The notes under the pieces were generated by a model, which was not told the origin of the DNA, searched no databases, and saw nothing but the letters and a program-made list of their open reading frames with translations. The position numbers and the translations under genes are program-made. Of a stretch of DNA of 52,383 bases, positions 2,818-16,105 are shown in pieces (positions within the stretch are counted from its first letter, which is position 1; every line of letters starts with the position of its first letter). This stretch comes from Chloroflexota bacterium (GTDB taxonomy: Bacteria; Chloroflexota; UBA6077; SHYK01): assembly GCA_035652535.1 (NCBI GenBank), contig DASRDP010000082.1, positions 1 through 52,383 on the forward strand, read 5' to 3'.

Positions 2818-3420
2818 TCACCACCGGTCGTTGCAGTAGGGCAGAAACTCGCACACGCGGCACCTGCCCAGAACACGCGTGCCATCTGGCATCCGCTCCA
2901 TCCCAACCGCTGCGCGGATCGCATGCAGGGCTCGCCGCGCATAGGCGCGCATGGCTGGCGTGATCTCTTGCGGCAGAGCCTGCTTGAGCGGGATGAAGTA
3001 CACGAACGCGCGTCTGACCGGCTTGCCGAAGTGGCCCTCGGCGAGCATGGCGTACGCCGCAAGTTGGCAGCGGTGGTTGACCCCAATGCCCGCCTGCGAG
3101 TTCTTGAACTCCACCGGAATCGCCTCTCGCTGCCGCAGGATGACCATATCCACGCGTCCGGAGAGCGCAACCTGGGGCGCGTGCATCTGGACATCGAAGT
3201 AGCGCACCCCATCCTCTATGCCGTAGGCGCGCAGTGTGCGCCGCTGCTCCAGGTCCGACGTGCGCTGGTGCTCGATGATGCCCTCCTGCATCGCGCCAGT
3301 GATGAAACGGTGTGGCAGCCTGAGGCCCAGGCGGAAGTACGGGATGCGGGGACAATACACCTGCTGGCGGAGGTCGCTCACCGTCAGTGGCAACAGCTCG
3401 CCCGCGGAAGGGAGCGTCAC
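2818..3420 (-). CDS. cas4: CRISPR-associated exonuclease Cas4
   Basis: This 200-residue protein has the full Cas4 pattern. An N-terminal cysteine (C23 in YCPRIPYF) and C-terminal C187-x2-C190-x5-C196 would bind a 4Fe-4S cluster. A RecB-type nuclease core is present with D91 (GRVDMVI), E104-x-K106 (PVEFKNS) and Q119. Cas4 trims prespacer ends and helps choose PAM-bearing spacers with Cas1-Cas2. The start is GTG, and GTGA overlaps the cas2 stop by 4 nt, so the two are translationally coupled. The length matches ordinary stand-alone Cas4. Confidence 0.95.
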   Translation of the reverse strand: MTLPSAGELLPLTVSDLRQQVYCPRIPYFRLGLRLPHRFITGAMQEGIIEHQRTSDLEQRRTLRAYGIEDGVRYFDVQMHAPQVALSGRVDMVILRQREAIPVEFKNSQAGIGVNHRCQLAAYAMLAEGHFGKPVRRAFVYFIPLKQALPQEITPAMRAYARRALHAIRAAVGMERMPDGTRVLGRCRVCEFLPYCNDRW

Positions 3421-3665
3421 GGGGTCTGAACCTCGCGACGCCCTTTGAAATCGGCATCGCAGATGGGGAAGATGGCTACGTGCCCAGCCGACCGGCCCAG
3501 CCGTCGCTTCGCCTTCTGTAACAGCTCAGCCTGGTGCGCAACGTTGAGGTTCCCCAAATAGGCGGAGTACTGAATTCGACTCAGGCCGTAGTCAAGGCAG
3601 AGATCGGCGATCTTCGTGCGGATCCGGTCCTCCACAATGTCATAGACAACCAGGCAACGTCCCAC
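3417..3665 (-). CDS. cas2: CRISPR-associated Cas2
   Basis: An 82-residue protein with a ferredoxin-like fold pattern: the first strand CLVVYDIVEDRIR contains the conserved aspartate (D9) and is followed by DYGLSRIQYSAYLGNL. Cas2 forms the dimer bridging the two Cas1 dimers in the integration complex. The start is GTG, preceded by GGAGG about 10 nt upstream. It lies in a cas2-cas4-csa1 cassette separated from cas1 by the whole effector gene set. Its ribosome binding site can pair with an upstream sequence (see the hairpin at 3672-3712). Confidence 0.95.
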   Translation of the reverse strand: MGRCLVVYDIVEDRIRTKIADLCLDYGLSRIQYSAYLGNLNVAHQAELLQKAKRRLGRSAGHVAIFPICDADFKGRREVQTP

Positions 3666-3813: not shown

Positions 3814-4626
3814 CTACTCTCGGGCGTACTCGGTAAAGCCCGGGCCCGAGTTCACGATGCCGAGCGGGACGATTGTCTGGACGTAGCGCCGATGCCGATC
3901 CCTTCGAGCCTGTTTTGCCGAGTAGGTGCTCAGCACATCGAGCGATGCGTCAGGCCCAAAGTCATCGAGCATCGCCACGTGCCAGCGCTCGGGCAGCACA
4001 AAGCCACGCTCAGCGTCTGGTTGGGTGAACTCCCCACCGAGTTCCCGCCGACGTTCGACGCCGACGAACTGCACGAACGAGCCTCGCTGACCGATATACG
4101 ATACGTGCGCCAGCAGCTCGGCCAACACCGACAGGAGCCGGTCGTCGCACGTGGCCAGGTCGAACGCCCAGACCCACTCACCTCCAAGGTACGCAACTTC
4201 TCGATAGGCAATGCTGGACCCGTATGGGTGAAGTGGGTTTCGTGTTTTGGGCTCCTGCCGGATTTTGACGAACGTGTGGGTCACGACGGCCCGCGAAGGC
4301 GGAGCCACCCGAACATCGACCGGGACCAGCCAGCGAAGCACGTCGGCGCATCGCTCGTCCGGCATGCCCATTCGGAAAGCCGCATCCACGAGCGCCATCT
4401 TGATCGCATACATGGTGGGCACGAGCAATGTCTTCCCCACGGAGCTGGTCGCCTGGCTCAACTTCAGCGCGAATGGGGTGGTGGGAGCGTAGCGACTCGC
4501 GAGCCATCGGCCAGGTCCCTGCACCCCGGCAACGGCCGCCGCGCTCTCGTTCAGGGCCGTCACGCGCATCACGCCCGACCCACCATCGGCCGGAGGATCC
4601 TGGGTCGTTCTCTGCTCGTCACGCAT
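3814..4626 (-). CDS. cas5: Cas5-like Cascade subunit
   Basis: A 270-residue protein between cas7 and cas2. Its first half (LALKLSQATSSVGK-like region followed by PTMYAIKMALVDAAF) and the later YIGQRGSFVQF stretch resemble Cas5 proteins of type I-A-like loci, which cap the 5' handle of crRNA in Cascade. Identification rests on these segments and on its slot in the operon. Sequence divergence of Cas5 is high, so the call is less sure than for cas1 to cas4. The ATG overlaps the cas7 stop by 8 nt (ATGCGTGA), which supports this start. Residues 1-20 are polar and poorly conserved-looking, so an internal ATG (MRVTALNE) is an alternative. Confidence 0.7.
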   Translation of the reverse strand: MRDEQRTTQDPPADGGSGVMRVTALNESAAAVAGVQGPGRWLASRYAPTTPFALKLSQATSSVGKTLLVPTMYAIKMALVDAAFRMGMPDERCADVLRWLVPVDVRVAPPSRAVVTHTFVKIRQEPKTRNPLHPYGSSIAYREVAYLGGEWVWAFDLATCDDRLLSVLAELLAHVSYIGQRGSFVQFVGVERRRELGGEFTQPDAERGFVLPERWHVAMLDDFGPDASLDVLSTYSAKQARRDRHRRYVQTIVPLGIVNSGPGFTEYARE

Positions 4627-5587
4627 GGTTCGGAACGTCCGGCAACTCCATGCTTTCGGCTACGTCCGCCAGCACGCCCACCCCATCAGCGAGTGAGTCG
4701 AACGGTCGAATCTCAATCGTGCCGGGTCGCAACCGATTTGATGCGGCCGCGGCAGCTCGGATCTGGTCCCGATAGCTGCTGACCAGCGGGCTGACGGTGG
4801 GTGCCGGCAGCGAATTCGAAGAAAGGGAGACCACACCTTCACAGCCCATGATGTGGGGCGCCTGCGTGTTCCGCTGCGCTCCACTTGGCTTCATGAGTAT
4901 GGCGGCCAGGGCCCGGATCAGCATCCGCGCGCGGGCGGTCCGGTCACTGTCAGCAAGTACGAGATCGCGTGTGATGTCGTTCAAGCCTATACGCCAGAGG
5001 TCAAGACTGCAGATCAGCGCATACTCGCCCGAAGAGGCCGGGCGGTGAAAGATCGCCTGCTGTCCCGCTACGGTGTCTCCGCCGGCAGCCTGACCTCGCC
5101 CCTCGGGCGCGTACTTCACATGAAAATACTGCTCGGTGACCGTGCTATCGGGCAGGCCAACGACCCATCCGATCTCTGCGACGGACTTCCGACCGACCGC
5201 GCGGCCCCGCGTGACGAGCGCGCCGGCCAGATCGGTCACGCTGCAGTCCTGGAGCATCTTGGTCATCACCGCGGAGTCCGAGTTCTTCTTGTCCTCACAA
5301 AATTTCACGAATTCAAGATTGTTCGCGTTTATGCGGTCGGGATCATGGATCGCCGCGCCCGGCGACAGCGGCTGCCCAGCCTCTCGGAGAAGCGGGGTCA
5401 GCTCATCCACCAGCATGTGCTTGAACATGTCGCCGCTTATCGCATTTACAACCTGTCGCTGGCCATTTTCATCCAAGATATGGACCATGCGTGTCTGCTG
5501 CTGGTTCCCTTCCGTGCCTTCGTTGTTCAGATTGTGGAGATTCAGCGTCACCCGGGCGCTGAGCGCAAGGGACGAGACGACCACCAT
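4619..5587 (-). CDS. cas7: Cas7 backbone protein, DevR/Cst2/Csa2 family
   Basis: About 322 residues. The N-terminus VVSSLALSARVTLNLHNLNNEG followed by an ISGDMFKHML segment is the hallmark of DevR-type Cas7, which binds crRNA as repeated copies along the Cascade backbone. The reading frame stays open upstream, but the ATG at 5587 with GGAGG 6 nt before it is the credible start; it lies 1 nt after the cas8 stop. A polar insertion of QQQ type near residue 28 and an alanine-rich C-terminal part are visible. The length agrees with the family. Confidence 0.9.
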   Translation of the reverse strand: MVVVSSLALSARVTLNLHNLNNEGTEGNQQQTRMVHILDENGQRQVVNAISGDMFKHMLVDELTPLLREAGQPLSPGAAIHDPDRINANNLEFVKFCEDKKNSDSAVMTKMLQDCSVTDLAGALVTRGRAVGRKSVAEIGWVVGLPDSTVTEQYFHVKYAPEGRGQAAGGDTVAGQQAIFHRPASSGEYALICSLDLWRIGLNDITRDLVLADSDRTARARMLIRALAAILMKPSGAQRNTQAPHIMGCEGVVSLSSNSLPAPTVSPLVSSYRDQIRAAAAASNRLRPGTIEIRPFDSLADGVGVLADVAESMELPDVPNHA

Positions 5588-5588
5588 T

Positions 5589-6065
5589 TCATTCCTCCCC
5601 GTCTTCAACATCATCCGGTGAGCTGGGCCCAGCGAGGTCGCCGGCATCGTCCTGAACATCGCCAGGCGCATCCTCCGCAGGTCCTTCGGAGTCCCTCGGC
5701 TCACGACAGGAGCCATACGCGGCCAACAGGGCCCCCACGAGCGGTGCCCCCCGCTGCTCGATGAGCCCAACCAGCTCCTGAAATTCGTCGGTCGTGACGT
5801 TTCCCGGAGCAAGCTTCTTCATTTCGCGTCGGCGAGCGTTCTCCGAGTTGTAGCTCACAACGAAATCCGCAAGCGCTTCGATCAGGGATTCAGGTTTCGG
5901 GAGCGCGCGCTTCCGTCGAATCTCGGGGAGCAGATCGTACCGGATCTCGCGGTAGTCCCTGGCCCCGATCGCCTTGAGGGCCTGAGCGCTCACCGTGGAC
6001 CGCCGGATCGCCCGTGCGACTGCTTGAAAACCGGGGGCATCGAGGATGTCGACATATTCCGCCAT
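5589..6065 (-). CDS. cas11: Probable internal cas11 (small subunit) within cas8
   Basis: Inside cas8 and in the same frame, GGAGGTCTAATG (ATG at 6065) forms a near-ideal ribosome binding site and start. Translation from it would give a 158-residue, mostly helical protein identical to the cas8 C-terminus. Other type I systems (I-B, I-C, I-D) are known to make their Cas11 small subunit by internal initiation within the large-subunit gene. This locus has no separate small-subunit gene such as csa5, so the internal start fits a real need. The evidence is the site, the frame, the size and the helical content; expression is not shown. Confidence 0.65.
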   Translation of the reverse strand: MAEYVDILDAPGFQAVARAIRRSTVSAQALKAIGARDYREIRYDLLPEIRRKRALPKPESLIEALADFVVSYNSENARRREMKKLAPGNVTTDEFQELVGLIEQRGAPLVGALLAAYGSCREPRDSEGPAEDAPGDVQDDAGDLAGPSSPDDVEDGEE

Positions 6066-7385
6066 TAGACCTCCAATTACTCGATGGGCATGTTGCGTCG
6101 AAAAGGATGGCAGGCGCCGGCGCCGATCACGATCCCGAGCGGGGACGAGGAAGGAGCCGTACGCCCCCATGAAATCGATGAAAGCGTCCGCTGCTCTGCC
6201 ACCTCGTTGCTCGAGAAATCGACGGTAGCGAATCAGCAGTCCCACCTCGTCCGAGCGCTCGTCGCGCAGCGAGCCGATGATTCGCTGTTGCTCGTCCAGG
6301 ATTCCCAGCCAGTCCGCCGCGTCTTGTTGACTGTGGATTTCAAACCAGTCGGGCACCGCAAGCAGCGAGAGGTCGGACACTGCCCGAGCCTGCCCAAGCG
6401 ATTGATAGTTGGTAATCGCCAACCCCGAGATGATGCGCGCGGGGGTCTTGCCGAGCAGGTTGATGCCGAGCATCGATATGGCGGACGACGGCTGGTCGCC
6501 GAACTGGGAGCGCTCGATCAGAATTCGGGCCATGTGGAGGACTGCAAGGGCGTCCACCTTCGGCGCGTTGCCGTAGATCGGGGCGGCGCGCAGCTCCGCG
6601 GACACGTGGCGCAATCCCGCAAGGGAGATATCCGCAGGCACCGGGCAAAGCACGCGGATGTGCTCGCCCTTACTCCCCGTGAAGAACGGGCACGCGCAAG
6701 CAAAGTACCCGCGATACCTCAGCCACTCCACCAGCGAGTCAGTCCATTGCTCCTTGGTTCGATCGTTCCTGTCCGTTCCCCTGGGCTTGAGCGCCCCGTA
6801 GCCTTTGGCAGCATTCGGATTAAACAGCTGCACGGACGAGACGTCCCAACCCAGGCCGGACGGTTTGCCAGCTTGGAAATTGGCAAGCGCTTCAACGAGC
6901 TGGAGCCGCAGATCTTCAGGTTTGCTCGACACGATGAGGCCGTGAACGTGGTTCGTGTTGTTGAAACCCTGGAGGGCGTTCAGAACCTGAAGTAGACGCC
7001 AATCCGGCCGAGGCTGGTTGAGCTGAAGGAGCTGCGCCACGTCTGGATCGCTCTCGCTTGCCTTTTTCTCGCGGATCGCTTTCCGCGTCTGGTTGTACAC
7101 GTCGACACGTTGTCGTTCCGCAGGATAGGACACCACATCGTGAACCTGAACAGGCGTCCCGTCGGTTTTCACTTGCAGGTACGGGTAGCCCGGGGCTGGG
7201 ACAAGGTCTTCCACGAGATCGGCGGGCTGAGCTAATTCGACGCGAAATCGCGGCCCCTCCTCAACTAGGCGGACTGATGAAGCCCCGACAGCCGAAGCGA
7301 GCAAGTCAGCGAGACCGGCCGCCGTTAGCACGTCGGCATGAGTCCCGGTTGACTTCGCTGCCGTGAAGATCAGCTCAAGAGACAC
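5589..7385 (-). CDS. cas8: Cas8-like large subunit of Cascade
   Basis: About 598 residues, between cas3 and cas7 as expected for the large subunit that recognises the PAM and recruits Cas3. The sequence is not a close match to any Cas8 subtype I can name; type I-A Cas8a1/Csx13-like is the best guess. Helical C-terminal segments (QAVARAIRRSTV, then REIRYDLLPEIR and LIEALADFVVSYNSENARR) look like the small-subunit-like domain of Cas8. The last 40 residues are acidic and probably disordered. I prefer the GTG at 7385, which has a purine-rich AGAGGGGGG upstream and overlaps the cas3 stop by 11 nt; a further GTG at 7409 is possible. An internal start at 6065 is described separately. Confidence 0.75.
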   Translation of the reverse strand: MSLELIFTAAKSTGTHADVLTAAGLADLLASAVGASSVRLVEEGPRFRVELAQPADLVEDLVPAPGYPYLQVKTDGTPVQVHDVVSYPAERQRVDVYNQTRKAIREKKASESDPDVAQLLQLNQPRPDWRLLQVLNALQGFNNTNHVHGLIVSSKPEDLRLQLVEALANFQAGKPSGLGWDVSSVQLFNPNAAKGYGALKPRGTDRNDRTKEQWTDSLVEWLRYRGYFACACPFFTGSKGEHIRVLCPVPADISLAGLRHVSAELRAAPIYGNAPKVDALAVLHMARILIERSQFGDQPSSAISMLGINLLGKTPARIISGLAITNYQSLGQARAVSDLSLLAVPDWFEIHSQQDAADWLGILDEQQRIIGSLRDERSDEVGLLIRYRRFLEQRGGRAADAFIDFMGAYGSFLVPARDRDRRRRLPSFSTQHAHRVIGGLMAEYVDILDAPGFQAVARAIRRSTVSAQALKAIGARDYREIRYDLLPEIRRKRALPKPESLIEALADFVVSYNSENARRREMKKLAPGNVTTDEFQELVGLIEQRGAPLVGALLAAYGSCREPRDSEGPAEDAPGDVQDDAGDLAGPSSPDDVEDGEE

Positions 7386-9801
7386 CTTCGCCCCCCTCTG
7401 CGGTCGCACGTTGGTCAGCTAGCCGCAGGGTTCGACTCAGGTACGCGACGAGCGGCCAGCTGTCTTCAAGCTCATCCGGATTGATCGCGATTTCAAGGAG
7501 ACTACGGACCACTGCGCCCCGGTCCGGGCGCTGATAGAGCTGCTCAATGACTGCCGCATTGAGGCGGGCAATCCCTGCTCCGGCGAGATCGCGCTGCCAC
7601 CGTTCCCAGAGTTGATCAACCCCCATGTCTACCCCGTCCGGCAGCCAACCGCCGTGGTGCGCAAGGATGCTGGCCAGCGAAGCGGAGACGAGCAGCCCCT
7701 GTCGCTCGTCCGCCACCGCCAAATGCTCACCGAGAAGACCGCACGCAACAAGTGCGCTCGCGGGCGCGTGCGGTGGACGCGGAGGTCGAAAGCGGCGGTT
7801 GGCCTCCCGGTCTGCGGGGTTCTCCGGGTCAAAGTCCGTGTGTGCGAGCCCGTCCACATGGACATAGTCGACCTCCTTGGTCCGTTGCCATGCCTCTGCC
7901 CAGCGCTGCCAGGACCGTTGGAGCTTCCCCAAATCGTGAAACAGGCCGACTGTCCGGGCGGCCGAGCGGACCTCCGGAACATTGAGCCCGTAGCGCGCGC
8001 CGAGCCCTGCCCCCAGGAAACCAGCAAGTCCGTCCACCTCCATCGCGCGACGCTCGGCTTCGCGCGCGACCGCCTGCGCATGAGCTGCCCACGTCTCGCG
8101 ATGTAGCGGCTTGTACCCAGGTCTTTTCGGCAGGCTGCGCGGTGGGCTCGTTGTCTCACCGGCCGGTCCAACTTCCAGCCCGACGTCGCTCGTGTACCGT
8201 GCCACCTCTGGAGACAGACAGACCATCAACGCCCGTCTGAGCTGCGCCTCGTCACGCAAGGGCTCCCAACGGTCGGCACGGCCCTCGTCCGGCGCGCCAA
8301 AGGCCCACACCCATGCCCGGGGCAGGAACCCCGTTCCGCTTTCGGGCTGTGCCAGCGCGCGGAGCTGCCACCGGGATATCGTCACTGACTCTCGCGTGCC
8401 GGGCGGATCGGGGAGCTCTCGCTCCCGAGCGACGACGACGGGAACCTCGTCGACGCTCTCCTCGCGGATGAGGTCTGCTATACGGATCGGCTGGCGAAGC
8501 ACGGACTTCGTGTAAATGCGGCGGAGGATCTCGTCGAGGCGCGGGCGCCAGCCGCCGCCAAGGGCGTGCGAGTCGGCTTCGCCGTGTACCCGCTCGATCC
8601 AGCCCGCCACCGTCGCGGGAGTAACCTGCGCCCCCGCGTGCGTGTGCTCGCGGAGCACGTCCGCTGTCGCGGCGAGGGCCGGGTCCGGTTTGTCCAGCTC
8701 ACCATAGGGCAGCCACCACCGCTCGACTGTCGCGGGCTGGTACACGTGCACGGTCCCCACCTCGTTCGCATAGCGAGCGCAGCGGCCCGCCCGCTGGATC
8801 AGTGCGTTCATGGGGCACAATTCCGTGTGGAGGTCGTCACACGAGATGTCCACGCCGGCCTCGATGACCTGAGTGGCGACCAGCACCGCGCGACCCGTGC
8901 AGCCCTTCCCGAAGAGTCTTGGAAGTTGCGCCACCTTGTCCGCGCGGTCGGGTTTGAAGAATCGAGAGTGGACCAGAAGCATCGGTACATCGTCGGGCAG
9001 CAGCCGGCGCAGATCCCGATACATCGCCTGGGCACGCGGCACCGTATTGCAGATGACAATCGTCCGCCCCTCGCTGGCCTTCAGGACCGCGCCTGCCGAG
9101 AGTGGCTCGTTCAGCGACTGGAGGGAGCGGAAAACGCCGGCTACGGTGGGCAGGTCCACAATCTCCCCAGCTGAAGGGCTCGCGTCGACGGCGCCGGTAG
9201 CGCTTCGAAGGACCTCAACGAGGGGGCTGGTCGCTGTCGCAGTCATCCAGACGCATTGCGACAGGTCACGGAAGAGATGGAGCCCCGCCGCGCCCGTGAG
9301 GAACGCTCGGACCGGCTCCATGAGGTGGAACTCGTCGAAAACAACGAGCGCCCCGGCGATCGCGGCGGAGTTGATGTTGTGAAGGCTGCTCGACAACCCA
9401 TAGGGCCCCGAGAGCAGACCACTCAACACTTGGTCATACGTAGTCACAATAATGCGCCCGAGGGCAAAGAACGGGTCGTCAGGCTGCTCGCCCGTCTGGA
9501 GCTTCACGAACCCGTCCGGATCGTGGCCGAGTCTCGCTGCGAGCGTGCGGGCCTCGCCATGAATCCCCTGCGCGAGGGTGCGAAGCGGTACAGCGTAGAT
9601 GAGCCGCATCGGGCGGTCCACCCACCCATCGAAGAAGAATGGCGCGAGGACGGTGAGCGTCTTGCCGGCGCCGGTGGGAGCGGCGACGACGAGGTTCTTT
9701 CGCTGCGCCAGCATCTCCGCCGCCCGCACCTGATACGCGTACGGGCGGCACCCAGTATGACGTGCAAAGAACTCGCGGTACGCGCTGGTGTCGAGAGTCA
9801 C
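7375..9801 (-). CDS. cas3: Cas3 helicase-nuclease with C-terminal HD domain
   Basis: About 808 residues. The N-terminal half is a superfamily 2 helicase: Walker A APTGAGKT at 41-48, DEFH at 156-159, TATAT near 185, and QRAGRCAR of motif VI. The HD nuclease is at the C-terminus: a histidine near 574 (AAHAQA), HDLGK near 622, then HAPAS near 683 and LAHHGG near 718. Most Cas3 proteins have HD first, so the order is reversed here. The protein unwinds and degrades target DNA recruited by Cascade. I chose the GTG at 9801, which has GGAGG 5 nt upstream; an earlier GTG at 9822 has a poorer site. It overlaps cas8 by 11 nt. Confidence 0.93.
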   Translation of the reverse strand: MTLDTSAYREFFARHTGCRPYAYQVRAAEMLAQRKNLVVAAPTGAGKTLTVLAPFFFDGWVDRPMRLIYAVPLRTLAQGIHGEARTLAARLGHDPDGFVKLQTGEQPDDPFFALGRIIVTTYDQVLSGLLSGPYGLSSSLHNINSAAIAGALVVFDEFHLMEPVRAFLTGAAGLHLFRDLSQCVWMTATATSPLVEVLRSATGAVDASPSAGEIVDLPTVAGVFRSLQSLNEPLSAGAVLKASEGRTIVICNTVPRAQAMYRDLRRLLPDDVPMLLVHSRFFKPDRADKVAQLPRLFGKGCTGRAVLVATQVIEAGVDISCDDLHTELCPMNALIQRAGRCARYANEVGTVHVYQPATVERWWLPYGELDKPDPALAATADVLREHTHAGAQVTPATVAGWIERVHGEADSHALGGGWRPRLDEILRRIYTKSVLRQPIRIADLIREESVDEVPVVVARERELPDPPGTRESVTISRWQLRALAQPESGTGFLPRAWVWAFGAPDEGRADRWEPLRDEAQLRRALMVCLSPEVARYTSDVGLEVGPAGETTSPPRSLPKRPGYKPLHRETWAAHAQAVAREAERRAMEVDGLAGFLGAGLGARYGLNVPEVRSAARTVGLFHDLGKLQRSWQRWAEAWQRTKEVDYVHVDGLAHTDFDPENPADREANRRFRPPRPPHAPASALVACGLLGEHLAVADERQGLLVSASLASILAHHGGWLPDGVDMGVDQLWERWQRDLAGAGIARLNAAVIEQLYQRPDRGAVVRSLLEIAINPDELEDSWPLVAYLSRTLRLADQRATAEGGEGVS

Positions 9802-10065
9802 CGATACCTCCAGTCGAGCCACTATCCGCCACCGCGTTGAGCGCTACGTTCCATTCAAGGCCGCCACGCGCCCATCCAAGTCGAAGCCGCGCGCCCTTGG
9901 CGTACGGTGCATGCGCAGGGGGCGATCTCAGAACCGCGACGGAGATCGGTCTGATCGAGGCCGCCCGCCCGATCGTCCAGGCAATGAACCAGACCGGTGG
10001 CTCCCTCGGCCGAAACGCAATGCAGGCGACCCTGCGAGCTGCGGGCGAGGATTAGCCGCGGCACG
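9802..10065. other. Gap between cas1 and cas3
   Basis: This 264-nt GC-rich stretch separates cas1 from cas3 in an otherwise tight minus-strand series. I see no credible gene in it and no clear promoter or terminator. It may hold a promoter for the effector genes, but nothing in the sequence proves that. Confidence 0.5.
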
Positions 10066-11157
10066 TCACCATCTCCCCAGCCACGGCTGATACGTCGCCT
10101 CGCCTCGAACATACGTCGCTACCCGGCGCGCCTGGGATTGAATGATGGTGCGAAGCCGGCGCCGCCGCCCCTCGTGGAACTCCTCGCCCTCCAGGCGCTC
10201 ATTGATTCGCTCGGCCAACGTCCGGCGCGTCCCATCATCGAGCCGGCCGCTGGCATCTTGCGCCAGCCCTACCCGCTGGTTCAGCAGCGCGAACACGCAC
10301 CGGTCGACCGCAAACGCGCGAAACTCTTCCACCAGATCGAGCACGAGGCTCGGCTTCCCCGGACGATCCTCGTGGAGGAACCCGGCGTACGGGTCCAACC
10401 CGGCCAACAGCACCGCCCGCTCCACCTGCGCGTACAGGATGCCGTAGCCGTAGTTGAGGCATTGATTCACAAGGTCGGTGGCGCCTCGGGTCTCTCGGCT
10501 CGTCCATTCGACGCCGTCATCGAGCCGCACCAGGCGGCGCGCGGCCTCCCAGTAGTGCCGGGCGCCTTGCGCCTCGATATTCATCACCGGGCCGCGCACC
10601 GCGTCGGCGGTTTCTCCGGCCACCGCGCCCGCCCGATTGGCCAGGTGCTCCAGGCGGAAGGCGGCGTCGCGCGCCATCTCATGGCTTTCCAGGTCCACCC
10701 GCGCTCGATACTTCGCCATGTATTTGAGCAAGGCGGCCTGGTTCAGCAGCTTTCCCCGGGCAAAGGCCCGCACCAGCCCGGCGCCCCGCCCGTCGTCGAA
10801 TGCGAGGAGCTGCTGCCGGCGCGTCTGCACCGTCCCCGTCAGCTCCGGAGCCACGAGCTTTGCATAGGGCGCGCCGCTGCGGGAGATGAACGAGATCGGA
10901 ATGCCACGTTCCGCGCATGCACGGATGGCGTCCGCGCTCACGCTCACGCCTCCGCCCAGGACCAGCACGTGCTCCAGGCCCAAGAGCGGCCGCTCGCCGA
11001 TGGCCGTGCCCTTCACGCTCACGGTCAGCCGTTCGCTGTGCTTACCCAGAAAGGCGCCGGCCGTTTCGATGAGGAGACAATCGTCCGGCGCCTCGGCCGC
11101 CTCAGCAATCGAACGGACGCGCGCTCTAGCCCCTCGCCGGGTTACGGACTCGGTCAC
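10066..11157 (-). CDS. cas1: CRISPR integrase Cas1
   Basis: A 363-residue Cas1 with the metal-binding set E195 (NIEAQGARHYW), H262 (LHEDRPGKPS) and D274/E277 (LVLDLVEEFR). It integrates new spacers with Cas2. The N-terminal beta domain begins near residue 27, so the first 25 residues are an extension or the real start is later. The GTG start overlaps the cas6 stop (GTGA, 4 nt). Unusually, cas1 pairs with cas6 here rather than with cas2 and cas4, which are some 6.4 kb away on the far side of the effector genes. Confidence 0.96.
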   Translation of the reverse strand: MTESVTRRGARARVRSIAEAAEAPDDCLLIETAGAFLGKHSERLTVSVKGTAIGERPLLGLEHVLVLGGGVSVSADAIRACAERGIPISFISRSGAPYAKLVAPELTGTVQTRRQQLLAFDDGRGAGLVRAFARGKLLNQAALLKYMAKYRARVDLESHEMARDAAFRLEHLANRAGAVAGETADAVRGPVMNIEAQGARHYWEAARRLVRLDDGVEWTSRETRGATDLVNQCLNYGYGILYAQVERAVLLAGLDPYAGFLHEDRPGKPSLVLDLVEEFRAFAVDRCVFALLNQRVGLAQDASGRLDDGTRRTLAERINERLEGEEFHEGRRRRLRTIIQSQARRVATYVRGEATYQPWLGRW

Positions 11158-12125
11158 CCCTCCAGCTCCACGCGGTAGCGCCCGTTACCCATCGCCGCGT
11201 CCTTCCCGACGTGCGTCAACGTGCCCCACACGAGCCACGGCAGGAATGGTGTCAGCTCCCCGCGGATGGTCACGTCGCCGCCGAGGCCGCCCATCGGAAG
11301 CGCGCGCTGATGGCGAGCCGAACCGCGGAAGACCTCCACCCAGGCGAGCCGCCGCTCGACAATCTGCACAGCTGCGGCCATCGACAGCAGCTGTGGCACG
11401 TCAGCCGGCGGCGGGCACCCGCCGTAGCGCCCAGCCAGCGCCGTGACCCGCTCGAGCAGGCGCGCAAAGAACGTCCGGAATGTAAAGGTCTCCGGCTTTA
11501 CCAGCTTGCCGGCCTCCACGAGGCGGGTGGGCGAATCCAGCGCCAAACGGAGTGAGCTGGCGCCCCCACTGGCTGCCAGCGTTGCCGCGGCCCCCAGCAC
11601 GTCGGCCTCACTGATGGGGAGATTGGGCGGGCGCACCGTCGCATCACCGCTTCGCTGGTACACGGACTCTGAGCGTCCCTGCACCGGATTGATGGCCCAA
11701 ACCTCGTCGAGGCGAAAGCTGCCCTGCCGCGTCTCGCCCATTCCTGCTCGGCCCATCTCCTCCACGCCCAGCAGCGCATACGGAAAGTGGCTGAGCGCAC
11801 GGCCGAATGTGGCCATCTCGAACTCGAACGTCTGGCCTGATGCATAGCTCGTGGGCCCGCGCAGCGGCGGGCGCAGCACGTATGGTCGGGGCACGTCTCG
11901 ACCGCGACGGTCGGCCTCATCCACGGGCGCGAGCAGGAAGCAGACCGGACAGTCGGCCACGACGTCGGGCCGCCCGCACCCGGCGCCACGCCCCGCCATG
12001 CAGAACTGGCGCCGAAGCGTTCCGAAGAGGGCGCCGCGAATCGCCGCGCCCGCTGCGAATGGCAACCGAAGCGGCGACACGACCTCCCCGCGATAGCGGA
12101 GCAGATGGATACGAAACGCGTCCAT
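11154..12125 (-). CDS. cas6: Cas6 pre-crRNA endoribonuclease
   Basis: About 323 residues from the ATG at 12125. A cysteine-containing CPVCFLLAP segment followed by RPYVLRPPLRG, and a glycine-rich GKDAAMGNGRYRVE loop at the C-terminus, match the Cas6 RAMP family in which the loop contacts RNA. It would cut the repeat to leave the ACTGAAAG handle. The frame is open further upstream, but that part overlaps herA and looks like low-complexity shadow sequence. ATG at 12125 shares bases with the herA stop (TGATG), which supports it. Histidines at several places could be catalytic, but I cannot tell which. Confidence 0.85.
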   Translation of the reverse strand: MDAFRIHLLRYRGEVVSPLRLPFAAGAAIRGALFGTLRRQFCMAGRGAGCGRPDVVADCPVCFLLAPVDEADRRGRDVPRPYVLRPPLRGPTSYASGQTFEFEMATFGRALSHFPYALLGVEEMGRAGMGETRQGSFRLDEVWAINPVQGRSESVYQRSGDATVRPPNLPISEADVLGAAATLAASGGASSLRLALDSPTRLVEAGKLVKPETFTFRTFFARLLERVTALAGRYGGCPPPADVPQLLSMAAAVQIVERRLAWVEVFRGSARHQRALPMGGLGGDVTIRGELTPFLPWLVWGTLTHVGKDAAMGNGRYRVELEG

Positions 12126-14011
12126 CAGTCCACCAGCCGCAGCCTGGCGGGCGCCGGATCGATGGCCACGAGCAGCGGGCGCGCCAGGTGCGGAAAGGCG
12201 ACGATCGCCTGTCCCGGCGCGAGGCCCGGCAGACGGCGCCACAGCGATTCGTCGATGCCGCTCACCGTCCGCTGGAGCGTGCTGACCACGGCGGGGTCCG
12301 CGATCTTATGCAGCACGTAACTGTTGACGAGGCCAAAGAGCTGCCGCGGCAAGTGTTGCGGGAGCTGGGTGACGAAGACCAGGCCGAGCCAGCGCTTGCG
12401 TCCTCGGCGCGAGATCCGCGCCACCTGCTCGAACAGGACGGGCATCTTGTCCGCGCGCTCGCCGCTCAAGAATTCGTGCGCCTCCTCGATGACGATGAGT
12501 GCCCGCGCGGGCTGCTCCGCCGCCTCACCCGAGCGCTGCGCCCGCTCATATGCCTCGTAGGCTGCGTCTTGCGCTTCCTGGATGCCGCGCAGAAGGTCCG
12601 CAATCACGATGTTGTTCAGCACGGGCGATCCCGAGTCCGAGAGGTCTACGATCGTGACTCGGCCCGGCCGCAACAGCTCGGCGTAGCTCAGCGGTCGCGC
12701 ATCTCGGTCTGGGCGGTCGAACACCCGCAGCCGATTGAGAGACGCGAGCCGCCCGAGAAGCGCCCGCCACGAGATGGGACTGGCCGAGAGCTGCGCCGCC
12801 CCGATGCGTCGCACCAGCGCGTCCTTGTGCTCAGAAAGGGCTGGGTGACGCGGTGACAACTTTGCAGGATCTTCCTTTTCGACTTTAGCCAGCGCTGCGG
12901 CGACCACGTCCATCAGGAAGTGCAGCTCCATCCGCGGGTATCCCCGCTCGAACTCGTCGATCTCAAGGGCGAGCTGCTCCTGCTCGGCGTTGCCCTGCTT
13001 CGGGAAGATGTTCAGCTCCCGCAGGAGCGCCTGGGCGACCTCGTAGGCCTGCATAAAGCGCTCGTGCTGCGCCTCGCTGAGCTGCATCATCTCCGCAAGC
13101 GCGTAGGGCGACGGGCGCGCGAACTGCAATGAGAAGGCTGCGCTGGCCGGGTGCGCGGGATTTGCCGTCTCGCGACCCACCAGATGCAGTAAGCGAATGT
13201 TCGGGACACCCTCGGGCGCGATGCCCCGGCGGTCGAGCGCCGCTCGCATCGCCGGGTCCTCGGTCGGCTCGTGGAGGAAGGTGTACTCGCCCTCAACGTC
13301 CAGCAGAATGACAGCGCAGCCCGCGGCTTGCGCCTGATGGATCAGGCCGGCCACGGTTGTGGACTTTCCACCGCCCGTCGTGCCCAGGATCGCCAGGTGA
13401 CGCGGGAGCACGTCTTTGCGCCACGATGGCACGGCAACGGCGAGGTCTTCCTGACCGATGACCTGGCCGAGGCGAATGTCGCCCTCGATGCGCAAGGCCG
13501 CGGCCATTTCGTGCTGATCGAGGAGAAAGACCGGACTGTTGGGCAGCGGGCGGAATCTCGGCGGCACCAGTCCACCCTCCCGCTCCTCACCCATGATTTC
13601 CACCTGCACCCGTCCGTGATACGGTGGGACGAAGATGCCGCCCCGCGTGACGACCGTTACCAGCACACTGGAGTCGGCGCGAAGTCCGTCCGGCTCGGCA
13701 AAGGGCCCGGCGACGACCGTGCCGACATAGCTGCGCGCGTCGTCACTGCGAATGCGGACCAGAGCCTGGGAGGGCGCGCGGCTGATCCGATCGGCGTTCA
13801 GCAGCACCGTCACGAGGTTATCCTGGCTGTTGGGCGCGTCGAACATGGTGAATCCGAGCGCGCCGGCGCGAGATGGGTCTGACGGGCCACCGGCCGCAGC
13901 CTCAGCTGTCGCCCGAAGCCGTTGGAGCGCGTCCGCCGGCACCTCACGAATCGCGGCGACGTCGATCGGCAGAGCGTCCTGACCATTCCATGACGGATCG
14001 TGCATCACCAT
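12125..14011 (-). CDS. herA: HerA-like DNA-translocating ATPase
   Basis: About 628 residues of the HerA/FtsK superfamily. Walker A GTTGGGKST lies near residues 210-218, Walker B ALIVIEEAHEF near 490, and a LAILGTTGGGKS context is typical of HerA/DUF87. An N-terminal beta-rich HAS-barrel-like region precedes the ATPase. HerA rings pump DNA and work with NurA in end resection, and HerA homologues are also used in antiviral systems. The stop overlaps the cas6 start (TGATG). The start is uncertain: GTG at 14059 directly follows the nurA stop, while ATG at 14011 or 14005 lies behind a GGGGG tract; I chose 14011. Linkage to cas genes is the notable point. Confidence 0.85.
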   Translation of the reverse strand: MVMHDPSWNGQDALPIDVAAIREVPADALQRLRATAEAAAGGPSDPSRAGALGFTMFDAPNSQDNLVTVLLNADRISRAPSQALVRIRSDDARSYVGTVVAGPFAEPDGLRADSSVLVTVVTRGGIFVPPYHGRVQVEIMGEEREGGLVPPRFRPLPNSPVFLLDQHEMAAALRIEGDIRLGQVIGQEDLAVAVPSWRKDVLPRHLAILGTTGGGKSTTVAGLIHQAQAAGCAVILLDVEGEYTFLHEPTEDPAMRAALDRRGIAPEGVPNIRLLHLVGRETANPAHPASAAFSLQFARPSPYALAEMMQLSEAQHERFMQAYEVAQALLRELNIFPKQGNAEQEQLALEIDEFERGYPRMELHFLMDVVAAALAKVEKEDPAKLSPRHPALSEHKDALVRRIGAAQLSASPISWRALLGRLASLNRLRVFDRPDRDARPLSYAELLRPGRVTIVDLSDSGSPVLNNIVIADLLRGIQEAQDAAYEAYERAQRSGEAAEQPARALIVIEEAHEFLSGERADKMPVLFEQVARISRRGRKRWLGLVFVTQLPQHLPRQLFGLVNSYVLHKIADPAVVSTLQRTVSGIDESLWRRLPGLAPGQAIVAFPHLARPLLVAIDPAPARLRLVD

Positions 14012-14059
14012 TCCCCCACACCCTCGGCTGGATCTGACTGACACGCCATCGCATCGCAC

Positions 14060-15322
14060 TCAGTGCCGGCCGCCGCTCATGCGGCCGGCGAAATATCGCA
14101 AGGGGTCGCCTGCGCGCGTGTACCCGAGCTGGAGGGCGCCGGCGAGGCTGTCCGGGCCGAAGGTCGCTTCGCATACCTGGGCCGCGAGATCTAACAGCAT
14201 CGGAACGCCGCGATGGGGCAGCAGCACGCTGTCGGCAAGAGCGACGAGCGCCGCCTCATGGGCGTGGGCGAGATGGGCGTAGAAGACTCGCGCGGTCGCC
14301 AGCTCGCTCGCCCGGTACACGCCGACGATGACCTGCGTGGCCACCTCGTCGCAGAAGCGCCGGATCCACTCGCGGGGCTGGAGCAGTCGGCCTCCAACCG
14401 ACGTGTCACTGGACGTCGGCAGGCTGTAGTGGCTCGCTTCCACCACAGGCTCGATGGTGTCGGCCAGCGTGCCGACGATGGCGTATTCCAGCGGTTGAAG
14501 CGCAGCCCCAATCGTACTGAGCATCCGGTGGCCCAAGCCGTCCTGCACGTAGAGGAATGTCTGGTGGCCGCAGATCAGCTCCTCCAGCAGCCTGGTTGCC
14601 TCGACCATGATGTCGAGCGTGCCGGCGGATCCGGTCAGGAGCTCATACGGGGCGGGGCTGCCTCGGCCGATGCGCCACGTCGCCGCGGAGCGGCGCAGCA
14701 GGATTGCGCGCTCGGCGTACGCCCGGATGGCCCGTCGCGCCAGCTCGCTGAGGTCTGCCTTGCGTCGGCTCGCCTCCTCATCCGCCCAGCTGCGCCGTTC
14801 AAGGAGGGCCAAAGCCTCATCCGCAGGGTCCGCCTGCGTCGCACGCAGATCTCGGCGAAAGAGGCGGTGGACCCACGTGCCCTGGGCGCCGTTGTACGTG
14901 ACCAGGCTCACGCCGATCTGCGTGACGCTGAGAGGAAGCGTTGCGTGGGTATACGCTGTTGCATCACAAGCTTCGACCCCGCCAGTGAAGAGCACTCTCT
15001 CGTGGACGGCGGTCAGATCCTCGATCGTCGCGCGGTAGACTCCCGCACCAACCGGCGCCGATGCGCGCGCCGCGATGCGCGGGAACAATCGAGTGCGGAT
15101 TGGGTCCCGCACGCGGGCCTCGAGAGCGACGGCCGCCGCGACTTCGTTTGCTGTTCGCTCGTAGATCTCCGCGAGATTCTCGCCCGTCCGCCACGACTCG
15201 AGGGCAAGGATGTCCCGGAGCTCTTCGCCGAACGCCTCTCCGAAGGCGCTTTCCTCGTCACGCGGCCCGCGTAGTTCTGTCGCATCTGCCACGGCGGCAC
15301 CTATTCGTCCTACCTCGTCCAT
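14060..15322 (-). CDS. nurA: NurA-like nuclease partner of HerA
   Basis: A 420-residue protein directly upstream of herA. An acidic residue in EACDATAYTH followed by strand-rich LPLSVTQIGVSLVTY, and the C-terminal RGVPMLLDLAAQV...GYTRAGDPL segment, resemble the NurA fold, whose conserved aspartates bind metal. Bacterial NurA sequences are very divergent, so the call leans on these segments and on the HerA neighbour. Together they would form a DNA translocase-nuclease. No clear Shine-Dalgarno precedes the ATG at 15322; the start could be later. It lies 45 nt after the ImmA/IrrE gene, so it may share that transcript. Confidence 0.65.
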   Translation of the reverse strand: MDEVGRIGAAVADATELRGPRDEESAFGEAFGEELRDILALESWRTGENLAEIYERTANEVAAAVALEARVRDPIRTRLFPRIAARASAPVGAGVYRATIEDLTAVHERVLFTGGVEACDATAYTHATLPLSVTQIGVSLVTYNGAQGTWVHRLFRRDLRATQADPADEALALLERRSWADEEASRRKADLSELARRAIRAYAERAILLRRSAATWRIGRGSPAPYELLTGSAGTLDIMVEATRLLEELICGHQTFLYVQDGLGHRMLSTIGAALQPLEYAIVGTLADTIEPVVEASHYSLPTSSDTSVGGRLLQPREWIRRFCDEVATQVIVGVYRASELATARVFYAHLAHAHEAALVALADSVLLPHRGVPMLLDLAAQVCEATFGPDSLAGALQLGYTRAGDPLRYFAGRMSGGRH

Positions 15323-15367: not shown

Positions 15368-16105
15368 TCATTCGACAGCCTCGTGCACCGGAAGCAGGTG
15401 CCGGAAGCGGGGATTCTTCGCGGGCGCCAACTCCCGTGCATGCGCAGTGGCGACGTCCGCTGGTAGTCCGAACGTTTCCGAAAGACGCAAAGCAGCCTGC
15501 TGTGCCGGGACGCCGGCCGGGCACACGTGTTGGACTACGTCGACTGGCGCGAGCAGCTCGATCGCCAGCACGTCGGCTTGCGCTTCAGCATGGCTCGCAG
15601 CAGGCGTGCGCGGTAATCCCGAAGCCGCCCGCTCAAATAGATGGAGATGAGGCCGAAGATCGAATCCGGCGAGGGCGGCGTTCATCCGCTCGGCGGCGGT
15701 GGGGGCACGGGTCCCGTCTATCGCGTCCAGGACCGAGCGTCCAACGCGAGCCGCCGCGCGCCGCCGGCGCTCAACGAATTCGATAAGGAAATGCGCCACC
15801 TCGTGCGCCAGGCTGTAGCGCTGCTCATCGGTGGGATCTTCGCTGTCAAGAAAAACAAAGCCGCCATGCGCGCTCGCGTAGAGGGCCGCTCGCAGAGGCC
15901 GTTGCTTGCTGGGACCGGAGAGGGGCAGGCCCATTGCCGATGTCCAGCGGGCAATGGCTGCCGTATCGAGCTTCGGCAGGTCCGCGACAGCCAGGGGCGT
16001 GGCAATGGCCACGGAATGGCGCAAGTCCCGGGGAAAGCCAGGCGGCCTACCGCCAGCGGCCTCCCAGAAGCGCGCCCCCGCCTCCACCGCCCAAAGAGGG
16101 GTCAT
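15368..16105 (-). CDS. ImmA/IrrE family metallopeptidase
   Basis: 245 residues. The zinc site HEVAH is at 101-105 in YSLAHEVAHFLIEF, and the third ligand is probably E174 in AEAQADVLAIELLAP, a pattern typical of the ImmA/IrrE (DUF955) family. These gluzincin-type peptidases cleave repressors or anti-sigma-like proteins, in mobile elements (ImmA) or after DNA damage (IrrE). The ATG overlaps the preceding small gene by 4 nt. It lies in a sigma factor-small protein-peptidase trio upstream of nurA-herA-cas. A natural guess is that the peptidase removes an inhibitor to switch on the sigma factor or the downstream genes, but this is inference. Confidence 0.85.
   Translation of the reverse strand: MTPLWAVEAGARFWEAAGGRPPGFPRDLRHSVAIATPLAVADLPKLDTAAIARWTSAMGLPLSGPSKQRPLRAALYASAHGGFVFLDSEDPTDEQRYSLAHEVAHFLIEFVERRRRAAARVGRSVLDAIDGTRAPTAAERMNAALAGFDLRPHLHLFERAASGLPRTPAASHAEAQADVLAIELLAPVDVVQHVCPAGVPAQQAALRLSETFGLPADVATAHARELAPAKNPRFRHLLPVHEAVE

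Follow-up and report, generated by a model that had tools for sequence, protein, structure and literature searches.

The cas8a gene (5589-7385, minus strand) of a type I-A-like CRISPR (clustered regularly interspaced short palindromic repeats) locus from a Chloroflexota bacterium appears to be a two-product gene that encodes both the large subunit Cas8 and, through internal initiation in the same frame, the small subunit Cas11, an interpretation to which we assign a probability of about 0.9. The locus is found on contig DASRDP010000082.1 of assembly GCA_035652535.1, of which the whole 52,383-nt stretch (hereafter, the window) was analyzed. Initiation at GTG 7385, which carries a strong Shine-Dalgarno (SD) sequence, would produce the 598-residue large subunit Cas8a, while initiation at an internal SD-ATG (6074-6063) on the same mRNA would release the C-terminal helical domain of Cas8 as a free 158-residue protein, the predicted Cas11. 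The initial annotation of this DNA had interpreted the internal start as a source of Cas11, and that interpretation is supported here by conservation of the site, by the lack of a recognizable separate cas11 gene, and by a fold match for the predicted product, as well as by selection on the SD beyond that on the protein sequence.

Within cas8, GGAGGTCTAATG sets an in-frame ATG at 6065. Reading 5' to 3' on the minus strand (...cgagtaattGGAGGTctaATGgcg...), the SD core GGAGG (6070-6074) ends 4 nt 5' of the start codon (6063-6065), and the resulting product of 158 amino acids plus stop (5589-6065) is identical to Cas8 residues 441-598, numbered from GTG 7385, confirming the in-frame internal start and C-terminal product originally described. 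The predicted protein would have a mass of roughly 17 kDa and an N-terminus reading MAEYVDIL or AEYVDIL. The ATG at 6065 is the only in-frame ATG of cas8 with a strong SD, displaying a duplex energy of -9.9 kcal/mol compared to +0.3 to +1.1 for the others and -11.6 for the gene's own GTG start. Taken singly, this sequence is weak evidence, because about 1.7% of in-frame ATGs carry such an SD (GGAGG 4-9 nt upstream in 6 of 347, including the genuine cas7 start, a background frequency estimated from the long open reading frames (ORFs) of the window only) and because shuffling the codons of this stretch in the window gene yields p = 0.074. The chance of one such SD-ATG somewhere in cas8, estimated from the same 6/347, is roughly 6-8%. 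These values would allow for a coincidence of GGAGG and ATG brought about by codon usage and conserved residues (Arg-Arg, Leu-Glu-Val, Met), and it is family-level conservation, rather than the single window sequence, that excludes chance.

We compared 35 cas8a homologues, comprising 30 distinct Chloroflexota genes (the window's own included), 4 from cyanobacterial plasmids, and 1 from a Deinococcus plasmid. A homologue was present in 41 of the 400 Chloroflexota genomes searched; a class-level search identified no further cas8a homologues, and no relatives were detected in the viral contigs searched. Cultivated strains with this system include Deinococcus gobiensis I-0 and Anabaena cylindrica PCC 7122. 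An in-frame ATG is found at the same domain boundary in 35/35 homologues, offset from the aligned column by about 11 residues at most, except that the offset reaches 26 in two genes of cyanobacteria where there is a local insertion. Loss of the site among homologues had been named as a possible refutation, and the site is instead retained across three phyla. For two genes (L012 and L017), the SD precedes a nearby GTG rather than the ATG. The residues surrounding the internal start are not conserved, and the SD is encoded via Gly-Gly (in the window), Arg-Arg (AGGAGG), or Glu-Val (GGAGGT), falling in three codon phases; the use of differing residues and phases therefore indicates selection on the nucleotides. 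A single 16-column segment of the alignment holds an SD-start in 22 of the 30 Chloroflexota genes, compared to 8 for the next best segment of cas8, and no comparable shared internal SD-start was found in the other cas genes tested (at most 2-6 of 15-20).

The strength of the SD, measured as duplex energy, was evaluated against a codon-shuffle null that preserves the protein sequence. Across the 35 genes, the mean duplex energy at the internal start was -7.51, compared to -3.07 +/- 0.40 for the null. For a non-redundant set of 24 genes, in which the last ATG in the stretch was used and an SD-based choice was made only in the two GTG genes, the corresponding values were -8.03 and -3.61 (z = -9.7; 0/300 shuffles), whereas 198 other in-frame ATGs in the same 24 genes, serving as controls, gave a codon-shuffle z of +0.9. 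Strong SDs were present at 54% of internal starts but at only 2% of control ATGs. Local mRNA folding at the internal start was also weaker than the gene average (mean z +1.19, standard error 0.11, positive in 33 of 35 genes). The SD at the internal start is selected beyond the constraints of protein sequence and codon usage, and with the difference from control ATGs and the lack of a shared site in other cas genes, coincidence is rejected at the family level and its probability is negligible.

It has been proposed that ribosomes are slowed by SD-like motifs within genes, and the site coincides with a domain boundary, the C-terminal domain being the best-predicted part of the Cas8 model, as might be expected of a translational pause or folding signal. 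Such a signal would require no start codon, yet every homologue retains the in-frame ATG, even where the SD is weak, making a pause highly improbable. Alternatively, the Cas11-like domain might function solely as a fused part of Cas8, with the internal SD-ATG going unused. The domain is joined to Cas8 in every homologue, and the small subunits of types I-F and I-G have been described as fused (PMC13199841), but a domain that acts only in fused form leaves unexplained an SD that is selected beyond codon usage, confined to the internal-start ATG, and present in three codon phases, as well as the reduced mRNA structure. We therefore consider exclusive function within Cas8 unlikely.

The helical nature of residues 441-598 anticipated by the initial annotation was recovered by structure prediction. 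The AlphaFold2 model of the internal product contains six helices with a predicted local distance difference test (pLDDT) score of 71.9, and the acidic tail was of low confidence. Among 350,542 PDB chains searched with Foldseek, the best match was 7tr6_D, a 107-residue chain of a type I-A Cascade (probability 0.98, target-normalized template modeling score 0.66, E-value 0.34), while the next match had a probability of 0.63. The 107-residue length of 7tr6_D fits the small subunit, and the chain is almost certainly Cas11a. With the PADLOC profile for stand-alone Cas11a, matches were obtained in the internal products of 16 of 24 homologues, the best at 7.8e-6, as well as in the C-terminus of full-length Cas8 proteins, mostly over model positions 42-104 of 105. 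When the same profile was run against 400 whole genomes, the best-scoring matches were mostly the 3' ends of cas8a ORFs, and the weaker ones included unrelated ORFs. Profile searches of PDB sequences, with Cas8 and with its C-terminal part, yielded no relatives, and full-length Cas8 was modeled poorly (pLDDT 49). Together, the model, its best PDB match, and the Cas11a profile matches of relatives support a Cas11-like helical-bundle fold. The long acidic tail (EDAPGDVQDDAG...DDVEDGEE; 5589-5700, minus strand), common to Cas8 and the predicted Cas11, is probably disordered, as suggested by its low-confidence modeling, and relatives also carry an acidic tail of varied sequence.

Several observations weigh against the production of Cas11 from this internal start. 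The alignment underlying the fold model consisted of two sequences, that of the window and one homologue, and the other four models reached a pLDDT of only 38-49. Because its E-value is 0.34, the 7tr6_D match is itself supportive but not conclusive, resting on rank and probability. The window's own product was not matched by the Cas11a profile at E<=1, so that only its relatives match. The SD is weak or absent in the 4 cyanobacterial and about 8 of the Chloroflexota homologues, and the gap between SD and ATG is long (~12 nt) in several near relatives (L002, L005, and L007). Finally, for the 60 nt of the window alone, local folding does not stand out from shuffles, and the structure signal is present only family-wide.

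The absence of a separate csa5/cas11 from the locus, as originally claimed, holds: none was seen in the cas locus of the window, and at the genome scale neither the PADLOC Cas11a profile nor the Pfam Csa5 model returned a match at E<=10 in the host genome (98.3% complete). Effector genes are consecutive in the 20 Chloroflexota loci compared, usually in the order cas3-cas8-cas7-cas5, and no separate small-subunit gene was recognized, although a few cas3-cas8 gaps of 0.3-1.2 kb were left unexamined. Cas11 proteins diverge past sequence recognition (PMC11899642), and the assembly comprises 168 contigs, so a separate, highly diverged cas11 could be encoded elsewhere in the genome. The failure of both profiles at E<=10, the abutting or overlapping arrangement of cas3, cas8, cas7, and cas5 in the window, and the absence of a separate gene from related operons all argue against this, and we regard such a gene as very unlikely. 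If Cas11 is instead produced from cas8a, then by analogy with types I-B and I-D (PMC11096372, PMC10212523), several copies of it, along with the C-terminal domain of Cas8, may lie along the Cascade belly and hold on to the non-target strand once it is displaced.

The window system was assigned as I-A-like based on its gene content. The PADLOC Cas8a profile was matched by 24/24 homologues (E=2e-45 for the window's Cas8), and no other large-subunit profile gave a match at E<=1, while Pfam and NCBIfam contained no usable model for the window Cas8 or its C-terminus. The credible solved relatives of the window Cas7 are all of type I-A (Csa2/aCascade Cas7 and Cas7a of type I-A complexes), and with Cas5a and Csa1 also present, these markers uphold the earlier description of a csa1-containing I-A-like locus. 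We retain the suffix "like" because Cas3 is a single polypeptide, with a helicase followed by a C-terminal HD domain, rather than the split cas3'/cas3'' typical of type I-A; also not found was a stand-alone csa5/cas11a, which archaeal I-A systems typically have. The best NCBIfam model for Cas3 is that of I-G Cas3 (TIGR02621), with a score below the cut-off, and a weak match of Cas5 to I-G Csb2 was also obtained; both hint at a possible link between the I-A-like group and type I-G. Among the plasmid homologues, those of cyanobacteria (L033-L036) lie beside split helicase/cas3 genes. Csx19/RAMP genes of type III character adjoin at least two of these cyanobacterial homologues, in which the internal ATG is generally retained with a weak SD. 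The Cas8a family is labeled "hypothetical protein" in the plasmid records L033, L034, L036, and L037.

A CRISPR array of 22 repeat units (1-1622; repeat CTTTCAGTATCCCTTTAACGGATCGAATGTGTGCAAC on the plus strand), detected by repeat search, occupies the left of the window and extends to its left end. It is followed by a minus-strand run of csa1 (Cas4-like, type I-A; 1831-2817; TIGR01896 at 8.6e-50, above cut-off, and PF06023), cas4 (2818-3420; TIGR00372), cas2 (3417-3665; TIGR01573), cas5a (3814-4626; PADLOC Cas5a 1.4e-52), cas7 of the Csa2/DevR family (4619-5587, ATG 5587; PF01905 2e-57), cas8a, cas3 (7375-9822; cas3_core at residues 44-364 and cas3_HD at 580-807), cas1 (10066-11157; TIGR00287 4e-72), and cas6 (ORF coordinates 11154-12242; PADLOC Cas6 7.5e-74). 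Because the cas6 ORF overlaps the neighboring ORF, the true start of cas6 is probably downstream of the ORF start. Directly upstream of cas6 are genes for a HerA-type ATPase (DUF87) and a 420-residue protein without a Pfam match (12125-15322, minus strand), which possibly constitute a HerA-based repair or defense pair, and adjoining these is a gene for an ImmA/IrrE-like (Peptidase_M78) protein (15368-16105, minus strand).

Internally translated Cas11 has been documented for types I-D, I-B, and I-C (PMC10212523, PMC11899642, PMC13199841, PMC11096372; see also McBride 2020, as cited in PMC10212523), in agreement with the premise of the initial annotation, with Haloferax Cas11b (PMC11899642) and the Synechocystis I-B system (PMC11096372) as examples. 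A 2026 paper sorted type I systems into those with a separate Cas11 (I-A and I-E), a fused one (I-F and I-G), or an internally translated one (I-B, I-C, and I-D) (PMC13199841), and the assignment of a separate Cas11 gene to I-A is shared by another report (PMC11899642). The window cas8a resembles the I-B, I-C, and I-D cases in having an in-frame start, preceded by a ribosome-binding site, within the 3' portion of the gene for the large subunit, a helical product (here predicted), and no separate cas11 gene, but differs in that the large subunit is Cas8a of an I-A-like system and the product itself is a prediction. In the type I-B system of T. maritima, an internal site of this sort proved able to stay silent in E. 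coli (PMC13199841). Compared to the type I-A Cascade of P. furiosus (7TR6 series) and T. tenax, it has Cas7 relatives, Cas5a, and Csa1 in common, as well as the predicted small-subunit fold, but the small subunit is located inside cas8 rather than encoded as a separate Csa5/Cas11a, and Cas3, with its HD domain at the C-terminus, is a single fused protein. The naming of subtypes is in part a matter of convention: the large subunit of Synechocystis, Cmx8, was given the name Cas8b in 2020 (PMC11096372).

Makarova 2011 noted that a separate small-subunit gene is present in only some I-A systems, and that where it is missing, Cas8a1 has a longer helical C-terminus, possibly reflecting fusion (PMC3150331). 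The window Cas8 likewise has a helical, small-subunit-like C-terminus without a small-subunit gene, but while fusion was proposed in that work, the present data point to independent translation, and the new element is the conserved internal start in cas8a. We found no report of an internal start in cas8a in the literature, in a search conducted largely outside subscription papers.

These results very probably extend the gene-within-gene arrangement of Cas11, so far reported for I-B, I-C, and I-D, to cas8a of I-A-like systems, and would place a wide range of bacterial I-A-like systems in the internally translated class. In practical terms, moving such systems to other hosts or recoding cas8a would probably require Cas11 to be supplied separately. 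The sequence link between the C-terminus of Cas8 and the stand-alone Cas11a profile also bears on how small subunits have been gained, fused, and split. We would give even odds to the broader proposition that internal Cas11 is general among bacterial I-A-like systems (Chloroflexota, Cyanobacteria, and Deinococcota), and that the separate csa5 of archaea arose by an ancient split or duplication of this domain. If this is true, one homologous small subunit would be expressed in two modes within a single subtype.
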